Source: Actinopolyspora xinjiangensis
GTDB lineage: Bacteria > Actinomycetota > Actinomycetes > Mycobacteriales > Pseudonocardiaceae
Length of the DNA: 64,000 nucleotides
Assembly (NCBI RefSeq): GCF_900104475.1
Contig: NZ_FNJR01000002.1
Span: 1 to 64,000 of the forward strand
Direction: 5' to 3'
Shown here one piece after another: positions 13,220 to 44,878 of the stretch. Position 1 is the stretch's first letter. Every line of letters starts with the position of its first letter. The position numbers were made by a program, and so were the translations under genes. Below the pieces are notes generated by a model. It saw only the letters and a list, made by a program, of their open reading frames with translations. It ran no database searches and had not been told where the DNA came from.

Positions 13220-17131
<3,912 letters not shown>

Positions 17132-17136
17132 CACGA

Positions 17137-17170
17137 ACGGTGCGCCGGACCAGGGAGTTCGGCGCACCGT
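17137..17170 (+). terminator. First hairpin after rpoC
   Basis: Perfect 11-bp arms: ACGGTGCGCCG (17137-17147) and CGGCGCACCGT (17160-17170), with a 12-base loop and no T run. It lies six bases after the rpoC stop, in tandem with a stronger terminator. Confidence 0.6.
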
Positions 17171-17181
17171 CGCGGTCGAAG

Positions 17182-17221
17182 AAGGCTCCCTGCTCGTCTC
17201 CTCCGAGCAGGGAGCCTTTTG
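17182..17221 (+). terminator. Intrinsic terminator of rpoBC
   Basis: Perfect 15-bp arms: AAGGCTCCCTGCTCG (17182-17196) and CGAGCAGGGAGCCTT (17204-17218), with a 7-base loop and a run of four T at 17217-17220. It is the most canonical intrinsic terminator in the window. Confidence 0.88.
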
Positions 17222-17254
17222 TGTCGTGAAACTTCGGGGCCGGTTCGCGTGCCG

Positions 17255-17372
17255 GTGCCGGTGGCGGAACCTCCGGCGCCGACGGCGCTCCGGGAGTGGG
17301 CACCTCGAGTAGCTACTACGCCACGTGCCCACTGTCCTCGCGGCGCCGACGCCGGAGAACCCGCGGCGGTGC
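17255..17372 (+). repeat. Structured dispersed repeat, copy A
   Basis: About 112 bp, aligned with copies at 17500-17613 (inverted) and 43942-44062. Shared blocks are GTGGCGGAACCTC, a TAG-TACTAC centre, GTCCTCGCG and ACCCGCGGCGGTGC. Nested arms in this copy are CTCCGGCG/CGCCGGAG, GGCGCCG/CGGCGCC and AGTGGGCAC/GTGCCCACT around the centre GTAGCTACTAC. It is the most diverged copy and lies between rpoC and the convergent 17656-18129 gene. Confidence 0.8.
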
Positions 17373-17499
17373 GGGATGCGCAGCCGTAAGTGCTCGGCGT
17401 CGTTCGATCCGTCGATTTCTCGCGTAATCGCCGGGACTCTTCGACTGGGTGATCAGTTCCGACCACCCTCGTGGGCCGACTCCCACCACTCACTCCACC

Positions 17500-17613
17500 G
17501 GCACCGCCGCGGGGTCTCGGGTGCGGCTCTCGCGAGGACGCCGGAGACGTCGTGTAGTACCTACCCGATGTCTCCGACCCCGCAGCGAGAGCCGTGCCAG
17601 AGGTTCCGCCGGA
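17500..17613 (-). repeat. Structured dispersed repeat, copy B (inverted)
   Basis: Read on the minus strand it begins CGGCGGAACCTCTGGC and ends CCGCGGCGGTGC. Inner arms are CGGCTCTCG/CGAGAGCCG and CGGAGAC/GTCTCCG around GGGTAGGTACTACAC. The innermost stem differs in sequence from copy A but still pairs. It lies in the same convergent gap as copy A. Confidence 0.85.
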
Positions 17614-17655
17614 CGACCTCCTACGCAACCGGGGCGGAAGTGCTCACACCGGAGG

Positions 17656-18129
17656 TCAGCTCTCCAACTCTTCCAGCGTCTTGCGCACCCGCTGCAACTC
17701 CGCCTCCAGCTCGGCCAGCCTGGCCTCGTGCTGCTGACGGGCCTCGGACAATACCGACTCGATGGCCTCCGAGATGTCGTCGTGCAGCTCACCGGCGGCC
17801 TTGGACACCGAGGACGCCGCGATGGGCAGCCCCTGTACGATCTTCTTGCCCGCGTGCGTCAGGTCGGCCTGCCACTCGCCCTCGGCGGTGCCGCTGACCG
17901 TCAGCGTGAGCTCCACCTGGCGTGTCTTGCGCGCACCGCCCTGCTTACGCCCCTTGGTCTTCTTCTGCGTTCCCTGCTCCGCGCTGCCGCTGCCGCCGCT
18001 CGGATCGGCGGTCTCGGCCTGCCGCTCCGCGTCACCCCGGCCGGTGGCTTCCTGGCCGGTGGTGGGCTGTTCCGGAGCGGTCTGCTCGGTGGTGGGCTGG
18101 TCGGAGGTCGGTTCTTGCTGTTCGCTCAC
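17656..18129 (-). CDS. Hypothetical coiled-coil protein
   Basis: 157 aa from GTG 18129 with the Shine-Dalgarno GAGAGGGG. The first ~65 residues are a disordered Gln/Thr/Glu/Pro tail, then a basic patch (KKTKGRKQGGARK). A conserved-looking core follows (VELTLTVSGTAEGEWQADLT, HAGKKIVQGLPI), and the end is a coiled coil (ARLAELEAELQRVRKTLEEL). It probably belongs to an uncharacterised actinobacterial DUF family (DUF6319-like, from memory). No enzymatic motif or membrane segment is seen. A -10-like TATCCT at 18165-18170 (minus strand) lies about 35 nt upstream of the start. It converges on rpoC. Confidence 0.75.
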   Translation of the reverse strand: MSEQQEPTSDQPTTEQTAPEQPTTGQEATGRGDAERQAETADPSGGSGSAEQGTQKKTKGRKQGGARKTRQVELTLTVSGTAEGEWQADLTHAGKKIVQGLPIAASSVSKAAGELHDDISEAIESVLSEARQQHEARLAELEAELQRVRKTLEELES

Positions 18130-18270
18130 TTTTCCCCTCTCGGGTCGCACGGCCGAAAAAGATCAGGATAGAACGTCTGTTCGATACCGCTTCGTGCGGT
18201 GCTGCCACCGCCGCGGCGGGAAAGGCGAGGCCGCGAACGGATTCCGCCGCCGTGCCCTCGAATTCCCGGT

Positions 18271-43125: not shown

Positions 43126-43914
43126 GTGTTGCGTCGCGGTAAGGATATCGAGCTCAAGAGCGATGGCGAGATTCAGGCGATGCGTGCGGCGGGGCTCGTC
43201 GTCGCGCGGGCGCTCGCGACGGTGACCGAACACGCGAAGCCGGGTGTCAGCACCGCCGAGCTCGACTCCCTGGCCGAAGGCGTCATCCGGGAGGCCGGTG
43301 CGATCCCCTCCTTCAAGGGTTACCACGGTTTCCCGGGGTCGATCTGCGCCTCGATCAACGAGAAGATCGTGCACGGCATCCCCTCGGAGACCGAGGTGCT
43401 CGCCGACGGCGACCTGATCTCGGTGGATTGCGGTGCGATTCTGGACGGTTGGCACGGCGATTCGGCCGTCACCATCCCGGTCGGTTCGGTGAGCGGACGC
43501 GACCTGGCCCTGTCCGCCGCCACCGAGCGCGCCATGTGGGCGGGCATCGACAAGGTCGCGGCGGGCAACCGGCTGACCGACATCTCGCACGCGGTGGAGA
43601 CCGCGGCCAGGTCGGCGGCTTCCTCGGACGGGATCGACTACGGGATCATCGCGGAGTACGGCGGTCACGGCATCGGAACCCGGATGCACATGGAGCCCTT
43701 CCTGCCCAACCTGGGCAAGCCGGGCAAGGGCCCGAAGCTGCGGGTGGGGATGGCGTTGGCGGTCGAGCCGATGCTCACCCTCGGTCCTCCGGACAGCGAG
43801 GAGCTGTCCGACGAGTGGACCGTGGTGACCTCCGATGGTTCCCGCGCGGCGCACTGGGAGCACACCGTGGCGATCACCGAGGACGGGCCCTGGGTGCTCA
43901 CCGCCGCTGAGTGA
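43126..43914 (+). CDS. map: Type I methionine aminopeptidase
   Basis: 262 aa from GTG 43126. Metal ligands are visible: two Asp in [16 protein letters not shown], His in [10 protein letters not shown], Glu in AVEPMLTLG and Glu in [10 protein letters not shown]. The family substrate-pocket segment [16 protein letters not shown] is intact. It removes the initiator Met. It is the last of the secY-adk-map group; the convergent gap downstream carries repeat copy C. Confidence 0.97.
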
Positions 43915-43941
43915 GGCGACCGTGCCCCGGTTTTGGTGGGT

Positions 43942-44062
43942 GGTTCCGTGGCGGAACCTCTGGCGCGGCTTTCGCCGCGGGTGCCGGAGACCTCGGGTAG
44001 GTACTACACAACGTCGGGGCCGTCCTCGCGAGAGCCGCACCGGAGAACCCGCGGCGGTGCCG
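43942..44062 (+). repeat. Structured dispersed repeat, copy C
   Basis: It begins GTGGCGGAACCTCTGGCG and ends AACCCGCGGCGGTGC. Arms GCGGCTTTCGC and GCGAGAGCCGC pair over 11 bp (one G-U) and flank the centre GGGTAGGTACTACAC. A short hairpin GGTTCCG/CGGAACC starts the copy. It lies between convergent map and the 44237-44878 gene. Confidence 0.85.
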
Positions 44063-44236
44063 ACTGCGGGCATGGTCGGGGTTCGGCCTGCGGGAGTGGT
44101 TGGAGTTCGGCATTGCGTCGTAGCGGCACGGCGATTCCGCGAGAGATTGACGCCCACCCAGGCCGGACCGCCTCACGCATCGGGGCCCTCGCCCAGCTGC
44201 GCGGCGATTTCGCGGCCGCTTCGGGGGCGACAGCAC

Positions 44237-44878
44237 TCACTCGATCGGGTGGCGGCAGGTGTAGTGCAGCATCGGTGGCACGCTGCGCCAGGTGGTTTGG
44301 GTCACCACCTCGCCGAAACTGGTTTCCAGATGGTTCCGGAACCTGCGTCCACCCGGACTGTGCCGCATGGGCAGGTAGGTCATGGCGGTGAACGCCCCAC
44401 CGGGTGCCAGGTTCCGGCAGCACTGCCGCAGCAGGTCGCGCTGCTCCTCGTCGGACAGCAGGGACCAGGGAATGCTGCTCACGATCACGTCGGCGTTGTC
44501 GATGCCGAGCCGTGGCAGCGTGCTCCGTAGCTCGCGTGCGTCGCCGTGGACCGTCTCCATCTCGGGAAGCCGCAGACGCAGGTGACGAACCATGCTCTCG
44601 TCGAGCTCTATGCCCACGTGCCTGCCCGCGGCGGGCAGGCGGTCGCGTATCCCGACGCTGAGCGAGCCCGTTCCCGGCCCGAGTTCGACGACCACCGGGT
44701 CACCGTGCGGGGGGACCACGCGGGCGACCGTGTTCGCCACGGCGTTCGAGGTCGGGGTGGCTGCCCCGACGGTGCCGGGGTGCCGGATCGCCGCTGTGAG
44801 GAAACGCCGGTAGTCGGCGGCCGGTGCGTTCCGCAACCACTGGACGGGTGAGAAGCGGCCGTGGCGTTGGGTCGTCAA
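44237..44878 (-). CDS. PmtA-like class I SAM-dependent methyltransferase
   Basis: 213 aa from TTG 44878, preferred for its Shine-Dalgarno GAGGAGAGA; longer frames lack similarity. RFLTAAIRHPGTVGAATPTS resembles the N-terminus of the phospholipid N-methyltransferase-like group (COG3963). Motif I is VVELGPGTGSLSVGI, motif II HVGIELDESM, and SSIPWSLLSDEEQRDLL corresponds to motif IV. The substrate cannot be told from sequence; related rRNA dimethylases are an alternative. It is inserted leftward between map and infA. On the minus strand a -10-like TATGAT lies at 44930-44935. Confidence 0.75.
   Translation of the reverse strand: MTTQRHGRFSPVQWLRNAPAADYRRFLTAAIRHPGTVGAATPTSNAVANTVARVVPPHGDPVVVELGPGTGSLSVGIRDRLPAAGRHVGIELDESMVRHLRLRLPEMETVHGDARELRSTLPRLGIDNADVIVSSIPWSLLSDEEQRDLLRQCCRNLAPGGAFTAMTYLPMRHSPGGRRFRNHLETSFGEVVTQTTWRSVPPMLHYTCRHPIE

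Follow-up and report, generated by a model that had tools for sequence, protein, structure and literature searches.

We describe a family of long hairpin repeats that is real, present in a quarter of the sampled genomes of its bacterial family (presumably Pseudonocardiaceae), structured and unusually placed, with most copies beginning shortly past stop codons and, in three chromosomes, the best-conserved copies following the direction of the replication fork. The repeats look like an undescribed family of small mobile elements. The best explanation, to which we assign a probability of about one half, is a non-autonomous MITE-like element whose folded DNA strand would be recognised at the fork by a putative enzyme, with gene conversion among the copies. 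Three copies lie in the window, the whole 64,000-nt stretch of DNA analysed, which comes from the salt-loving actinomycete Actinopolyspora xinjiangensis (Table 1). A search of titles and abstracts, outside the subscription journals, returned no description of the hairpin family; those parts of an S. erythraea transcriptome paper that were consulted (PMC3610266) do not concern it.

Copies in the window and extent of the family

The sequence-only reading had proposed three copies, A, B and C, and their positions were borne out by covariance model R1, built from 31 copies of the window genome (G000; 5.04 Mb, 33 contigs). Copy A starts 130 nt past the stop codon of an rpoC-like gene, with rpoC's own terminator in between; copy B starts 44 nt past the stop codon of the facing DUF6319 gene, and copy C 34 nt past that of an M24 peptidase (map-like) gene. 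Both A and B are oriented sense to their own genes.

Table 1. Features of the window that bear on the hairpin family. Bit scores are circular, as the 31-copy training set of the model includes A, B and C.
Feature	Position	Strand	Basis
Copy A core, 112 bp	17262..17373	+	covariance-model match, 102.3 bits
Copy B core, 112 bp	17500..17611	-	covariance-model match, 122.9 bits
Copy C core, 113 bp	43949..44061	+	covariance-model match, 112.0 bits
Leader segment of copy A, type nTCGGnTTGCGTGGnnGGTCGnG	17232..17261	+	consensus upstream of 119 stop-adjacent copies; placed by position
Leader segment of copy B	17612..17641	-	119-copy consensus; placed by position
Leader segment of copy C	43919..43948	+	119-copy consensus; placed by position
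24-nt direct repeats (TGCGGGnrTGGTyGGrGTTCGGC / TGCGGGAGTGGTCGGAGTTCGGCC type) 3' of copy C	44062..44111	+	alignment; by eye
rpoC (RNA polymerase beta-prime), host gene of copy A	13220..17131	+	five Pfam RNA_pol_Rpb1 domains
rpoC's own intrinsic terminator, 3' of the stop codon and 5' of copy A	17182..17220	+	terminator-like site 17198-17214 plus T run; long hairpin extent by eye
DUF6319 gene (PF19844), host gene of copy B, faces rpoC	17656..18150	-	Pfam match
Metallopeptidase M24 gene (map-like, PF00557), host gene of copy C	43126..43914	+	Pfam match
Methyltransferase-domain gene (PF13649), faces map-like gene across copy C	44237..44740	-	Pfam match

The stems that had been named for A and B are present, those of copy A belonging to a rarer subfamily. 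Copy C departs from that description: its middle stem contains one G.T pair and its innermost stem is broken, the 5' arm being of the GCCGGAGAC type and the 3' arm of the GTCGGGGCC type, so that the two arms come from two subfamilies. The string GTAGNTACTAC occurs three times in the window without a mismatch and never with a single one; with up to one mismatch allowed, 0.29 matches were expected by chance and three were reached in 1 of 100 shuffles. When single copies were folded as DNA and compared with 200 shuffles each, copy B folded clearly better (1 of 200 as good), and A and C did not (22 and 149 of 200 as good). It is the comparison between copies, and not the single folds, that makes the case for structure.

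R1 produced 140 matches in G000 at E<=1, some places being matched on both strands; once opposite-strand and weaker matches had been set aside, 93 places were left (30 best and 63 listed, the window's three included). With about 90 more places in G000, and matches in relatives as well, the family clearly extends beyond the three copies with which it was first described. A blastn search with copy C gave 40 long matches in G000, itself counted. Model matches numbered 123 in G013 and 41 in G012 (both at E<=0.01) and 139 in G062 (E<=1e-4). With either of two models, R1 or R2, matches were found in 15 of the 60 sampled genomes of the family and in none of the other 45. All 104 stretches returned by an exact-core scan of the named GTDB collection were in four Actinopolyspora species (righensis, mzabensis, biskrensis and alba). 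Under strict filters, R1 matched only G000 among 296 genomes of the class (12 candidates scored per genome), and R2 matched 6 of 121 genomes of the order, all from the same family (31 candidates per genome); these absences outside the family are weak negatives beyond close kin. Plasmid, phage and viral collections gave no blastn match, and a pattern scan of viral contigs gave 17 matches, all judged by reading to be due to chance and none matching the model. A phage, plasmid or viral origin was rejected, as no copy was found in those collections.

Position behind genes and orientation with the fork

Genes were called with a home-made codon log-odds finder, not a standard caller. For G000 we used a set of 91 copies, leaving out two listed places and all weaker matches. 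None of the 91 overlaps a gene by >20 nt; together with the many short, related and dispersed copies this agrees with the term MITE-like, one of the possibilities raised from the sequence. A same-strand upstream gene was seen for 72 of the 91 copies (stop codons TGA 53, TAG 17, TAA 2), and in 64 of those 72 (64/91 overall) the core begins 29-48 nt past the stop. In three other genomes, copies that have a same-strand gene upstream fall within this range in 18/27 cases for G013, 12/17 for G012 and 23/25 for G062 (best 30, 20 and 30 copies, respectively). Seven G013 copies are outliers at >=79 nt. In six of them, by reading, stop and core are separated by an intervening feature, which is an intrinsic terminator at L180, L185 and L192 and a second, related element at L172, L173 and L199; copy A, behind the rpoC terminator, is an outlier of the same kind. 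Many copies lie between convergent genes: 39/91 in G000 and 24/41 in G012.

Two other rules of placement were considered and rejected. Three tRNA genes were found among 44 loci scanned, and no copy adjoins any of them. In 52 of 171 copies, those that are not 25-50 nt past a called same-strand stop, T(G/A)(A/G) triplets show a peak at 30-39 nt upstream (26, compared with about 7.5 per bin); missed genes could explain this peak, and a target motif independent of stop codons was not retained.

A blastp comparison of the genes upstream of the best copies in G000, G062, G013 and G012 gave two cross-genus links at >=70% identity, the map-like gene (G013 and Actinopolyspora) and one gene common to G012 and G062. 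Judging from the best copies, which were the only ones compared, most sites look independent between genera. The map-like gene thus has a copy past its stop in two genera (L175 of G013 and copy C of the window), which may reflect recurrent targeting or old common descent, the two being indistinguishable. The dnaA gene of G062 has a copy of its own 33 nt past the stop (C1 1927-2040), and none is listed beside dnaA in G012 or G013.

Orientation was analysed on G012, G013 and G062, each a single contig starting at dnaA and representing a circular chromosome, on the assumption that replication starts at the dnaA end and terminates near mid-chromosome. In G012, 38 of 41 copies are fork-oriented, compared with 412 of 733 genes nearby on the leading strand (p 3e-7 under that rate); the gene count comes from 40 surrounding 20-kb regions, some of which overlap, so that a few genes were counted twice. 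Fork-oriented copies in G013 number 29/30 for the best 30 and then 22/32, 23/30 and 20/31 (94/123 in all), and in G062, by score rank, 14/15, then 10/15, 20/30, 30/40 and 19/38, a total of 93/138 (the 139 matches minus one opposite-strand duplicate). The bias in these two genomes is therefore strongest in the best-scoring copies and weaker in the rest; beyond the first 15, the G062 copies (79/123) are not far above the gene baseline of 193/337 measured at 4.11-4.51 Mb. In convergent regions, where either gene end is available, the fork orientation was followed by 22/24 of all G012 copies, 14/15 among the best 30 of G013 and 8/11 among the best 30 of G062. Copies that are antisense to, or divergent from, their neighbours are still mostly fork-oriented (4/5 in G012, 3/3 in G013, 4/5 in G062; 11/13 together). 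No significant bias was detected in G038, an Actinopolyspora genome, with 30/47 copies; its best fit, 32/47, compares with an average of 29.7 and a maximum of 35 for random strands. On the terminus side of G062 (5.24 Mb) there is no listed match in 1.48-2.71 and 2.81-3.23 Mb, nor is there one in 2.08-2.77 Mb of G013.

Fork-coupled insertion is reported for elements of the IS200/IS605 type, which transpose as single strands, enter the lagging-strand template and mirror the direction of replication (PMC5371812, PMC6006769). Other transposases couple to the beta clamp and produce a similar bias in which single strands are not used, as described in PMC5371812. The fork bias of the hairpin family may also arise from selection or from beta-clamp-coupled transposases.

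Structure, covariation and turnover

The core, about 112 bp long, extends to roughly 150-250 bp with its leader and downstream repeats. At the foot GCGG pairs with CCGC, followed by a symmetric AAC/AAC internal loop; stem P1 (18 bp, starting CTC/GAG) is separated by an asymmetric internal loop, tGcGGG against GTCC, from the inner stem P2 of about 9 bp, on which stands a short apical stem. The latter is GTAG-NNA-CTAC in most Actinopolyspora copies and other paired sequence in G012; the centre, which the sequence-only reading gave as GTAG-NTA-CTAC and called fixed, is thus not fixed across the family. The sequences of P1 and P2 vary widely between copies and genera with pairing kept, and the loops and feet are conserved.

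Several companion repeats were seen. Many cores are followed on the 3' side by 24-nt direct repeats, one to about four per copy, and a similar unit lies inside the leader. A second, related family has the same apical motif (TTGAGTAG..CTACGCGGC or ATCGAGTAG..CTACGCCAC) with other outer stems (GCCGGCACGTGAGGCG .. CGCCTCACG); it occurs at L131, L087, L084, L172, L173, L199, G000 C14:~109,910 and the G062 orthologue of C14:264,577, in some places also directly past a stop codon. A separate short palindrome of the GGCGATTTCnCGnGAAATCGmCG type is intergenic and lies 3' of several Actinopolyspora copies (e.g. L137, L143, L155).

Pairing was counted in 87 copies from six genomes (32 from G000, 32 from G013, 20 from G012 and one each from G038, G035 and G005), which remained of the 102 model-fitted rows of alignment A2 after 15 opposite-strand or duplicate rows had been dropped. 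We observed pairing in 93.7% of stem cells, compared with 36-50% when the 3' side was slid by 1-3 columns and with at most 76.4% in 200 column shuffles. Both sides have changed at 27 of 40 pairs, a count that does not represent independent events, the 87 rows being related and fitted to the model. With these double changes and the further copies, the description of a dispersed structured family with covarying stems holds. Compensatory changes fit a DNA structure as well as an RNA structure.

The composition of the pairs bears on this choice. Among 3377 stem cells, read on the sense strand, 3125 are Watson-Crick, 39 G.T, 86 A.C and 127 other. Two adjacent columns, mainly in G000, hold 44 of the 86 A.C cells, and without them A.C stands at 42 and G.T at 38; counted by column and genome, the numbers are 27 and 23. 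Selection on a sense transcript should tolerate G.U and not A.C, and the observed G.T is no commoner than A.C; taken with the fork orientation, this favours a folded DNA strand, or templated correction of a palindrome, over RNA. No T-tract follows A or B (a terminator scan of 17100-17700 finds the rpoC terminator only), and none was seen in the aligned copies, which continue with CCGCGGCGGTGCC. The window has no Rfam match at the gathering score, and at lax E-values 17100-17700 gave sub-threshold microRNA matches only. The suggestion of an RNA-level terminator module accordingly went unsupported, with no T-tract after A or B, G.T not above A.C, and an orientation that in the best-conserved copies mostly follows the fork, also where the gene points the other way.

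Ten Actinopolyspora genomes, the window's included, were compared by reading at the map-like and rpoC sites. Six of them carry an element behind the map-like gene, three have a degenerate one there and one has none. Behind rpoC the terminator is present in all ten. Copy A is intact there in four genomes; in G066 it has fused with B, the junction being at the apical loop, and elsewhere it is deleted (G060), absent (G061, G067, G038) or reduced to a remnant (G065). Stem types switch at orthologous sites with pairing largely kept: in P2, among a few types, at L116/L308, L113/L122 and L080/L106, and in P1 at L082/L098; the flanks of these sites are 97.6-98.5% identical upstream and 94.5-97.2% downstream. 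In comparison with its G062 orthologue copy A differs in both stems, which stay paired, with loops and adjoining sequence nearly the same. A copy of the same subfamily as A is present in G000 at C25:257301. It is a plausible donor for the stems of copy A, judging from the sequences, and its presence weakened the idea that these stems were rewritten de novo. The two-type inner arms of copy C are as expected of a conversion tract ending inside the stem.

Over a 400-kb comparison of G000 with G062, 253 kb lie in chained blocks that are 94.2% identical. The same stop codon can be followed by different elements: at C14:109901 the second family stands in G000 and the first in G062, and at C14:309470 the first stands in G000 and both in G062. 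L084 and L087 represent a site with and without the element. We found no target-site duplication and no clean empty site with defined ends, empty sites being complicated by other changes; in the sole presence/absence pair that adjoins a stop codon, a second element complicates the comparison. Terminal inverted repeats were read by eye in some G012 copies.

By reading, the apical palindrome or its immediate border is where at least six truncated or fused copies end (L457, L134, L090, L302, which is the rpoC fusion, C14:99,938 and the G062 orthologue of C14:315,012), and breaks occur elsewhere too (L121, L034, L055, L312, L139). The 28 rows listed as halves include several intact copies whose partners are divergent. 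In a fold-back copy at L116 (L116:5696), 17 nt of the 5' arm continue into their exact complement, which takes the place of the normal 3' half; a template switch would leave such a product.

Genus g34 has one match in each of its three sampled genomes. In G399 and G391 the match lies 13 nt past gatB (the G399 gene carries the GatB_N Pfam domain), and the 111-nt cores have exactly four differences, which form two compensatory pairs (15:90 and 22:83). Around the cores, 1486 nt of gatB differ at 95 alignment columns, and 380 nt (1621 to 2000) at 136. The third genome, G033, has its copy 35 nt past a different gene. The gatB pair resembles a maintained site more than a mobile one.

Possible explanations and known systems

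In the explanation that we prefer, a mobile MITE-like element, the object recognised would most likely be a folded single DNA strand: a long imperfect hairpin with stems of any sequence provided they pair, conserved unpaired AAC facing AAC, an asymmetric loop and an apical palindrome. Insertion would proceed via the lagging-strand template or another fork-coupled route, with stop-adjacent DNA as the preferred target, and the mobilising enzyme would be encoded elsewhere in the genome. Stem exchange would most simply be ectopic gene conversion among copies, and templated correction across the hairpin may add to it. What the sequences themselves show is a large number of copies, subfamilies specific to lineages, covarying Watson-Crick stems, a position close behind stop codons for most copies, fork orientation of the best-conserved copies in three chromosomes, different elements behind one and the same stop codon in close relatives, and stem types swapped between orthologues. 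No transposase was found, the Y1 family (PF01797) being the only one searched; since PF01797 was detected in just 5 of 15 element-bearing sampled genomes (G005, G012, G025, G038, G046) and not in G000, G013, G014, G026, G030, G033, G035, G040, G052 or G053, the enzyme is probably not of the Y1/RAYT kind. A bolder form of this explanation, a fork-coupled mobile DNA hairpin of a new kind in which a non-Y1/RAYT enzyme reads the shape of the folded strand and inserts it beside stop codons, the stems being continually rewritten by conversion and self-templating so that covariation would arise without RNA function, is speculative and, taken as a whole, doubtful. Several observations speak against a mobile element: the lack of a transposase, of a target-site duplication and of a clean empty site among the results, the lack of plasmid, phage or viral copies, the unbiased G038, the weak single folds of A and C, and the single-copy gatB site with its two compensatory changes in two species.

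The strongest alternative is a 3'-UTR module that acts at the RNA level and has spread through its usefulness at gene ends: it could terminate transcription with the help of a factor or without a U tract, form an RNase-resistant 3' end, or bind a protein. On the whole we consider it less likely than a mobile element. The 29-48 nt spacing past a same-strand stop (64/91), the frequency of copies between convergent genes (39/91 and 24/41), the sense orientation of A and B and the conserved unpaired positions, which suggest a bound factor, are what such a module would lead one to expect. The gatB orthologues also speak for it, with one listed match per genome, two compensatory changes and no donor seen, and they make an RNA function at some sites conceivable. 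The pair counts, G.T 39 and A.C 86, are the opposite of what a sense RNA predicts; in addition, T-tracts and Rfam matches are missing as detailed above, copy A sits behind an rpoC terminator kept in 10/10 genomes, and the best antisense and divergent copies mostly follow the fork (11/13). An RNA role in the 3'-UTR is thus the less likely.

A polar, cruciform-forming DNA sequence that serves replication, segregation or repair through a host protein bound to it, and that is selected for fork polarity, would account for the strong polarity of the best copies (38/41, 29/30, 14/15) and for the stretches of G062 (1.48-2.71 and 2.81-3.23 Mb) and G013 (2.08-2.77 Mb) with no listed match. Such a chromosome-organising site is improbable: 45 of 60 family genomes have no match, listed matches range from 1 to over 100 among related genera, unlike an essential polar site, G038 is unbiased, and polar sites leave the stop-codon spacing unexplained. 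We give a similarly slim chance to an origin free of selection, in which one long imperfect palindrome, dispersed in the distant past, has its pairing kept by hairpin-templated mutation and conversion only and its position reflects tolerance of insertion at gene ends. Nearly pure Watson-Crick stems, stem types that switch at orthologous sites, the L116 fold-back (17 nt and exact complement), the two-type arms of copy C and breaks at the apex agree with it; conserved unpaired positions and the narrow 29-48 nt spacing are unexpected without selection or targeting, and the high copy number requires some spread.

A canonical REP/REPIN moved by a RAYT (Y1 HUH) transposase is very improbable and was largely refuted by the absence of transposase and by anatomy: GTAG-bearing dispersed palindromes oriented with the fork as IS200/IS605 are (PMC6006769 and PMC5371812) agree with it, but PF01797 was not found in 10/15 element-bearing genomes, G000 and G013 included, and the 31-copy alignment has GTAG inside the apical stem of a 112-nt core, not at the foot, so the term REP-like fails in its strict sense. 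PMC6006769 defines a REP by the tetranucleotide GTAG or GTGG, situated 0-2 nt 5' of a hairpin of 7-20 bp, and by a length of 21-65 nt. With REP/REPIN and IS200/IS605 elements the hairpin family has in common dispersed intergenic palindromes, a folded single strand as the likely signal and fork orientation (reported for IS200/IS605 in PMC5371812); it differs from them in its 112-nt multi-helix core, conserved internal loops, lack of a foot tetranucleotide and tight spacing from stops.

The MIRU of mycobacteria insert at start codons and carry an internal ORF that keeps translational coupling, as reported in PMC12548453. They are likewise small, apparently mobile actinomycete repeats fitted to gene boundaries (PMC12548453). 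Unlike the MIRU so described, the hairpin family lies mostly past stop codons and forms a long hairpin.

Covariation normally counts as strong evidence of a functional RNA; here it is strong, G.T is as rare as A.C and the best-conserved copies follow the fork, so that the family offers a natural test of whether DNA hairpins yield covariation of the RNA type. The list of repeats with fork orientation would also gain a member that occurs mostly in hosts without Y1 transposase and is placed with unusual precision at gene ends. For annotation of the industrially important Pseudonocardiaceae, its copies could pass for terminators or small RNAs.

The ERIC sequences of enterobacteria are structured interspersed repeats of the same kind as BOX, RUP and SPRITE of pneumococcus. 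Compared by description, the hairpin family resembles the latter three, which PMC3049150 regards as parasitic: the repeats are interspersed, highly structured and each belong to one lineage. A further comparison is with the attC sites of integrons.

These are hairpins that depend on structure over sequence, are recombined as a folded single strand directly past a stop codon, and carry RYYYAAC and GTTRRRY core sites at their feet. The likeness lies in the folded-strand hairpin, in structure over sequence and in the position past a stop codon; unlike attC, the 31-copy consensus has feet GCGGAAC and GAGAACCCGC, with no GTT at the 3' foot, and the genes that precede the copies are chromosomal ones, rpoC and the map-like gene among them. 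Thus, on the features tested, the family is not a member of REP, MIRU, attC or Rfam; it is a family of small structured interspersed repeats with unexplained rules of placement and orientation.
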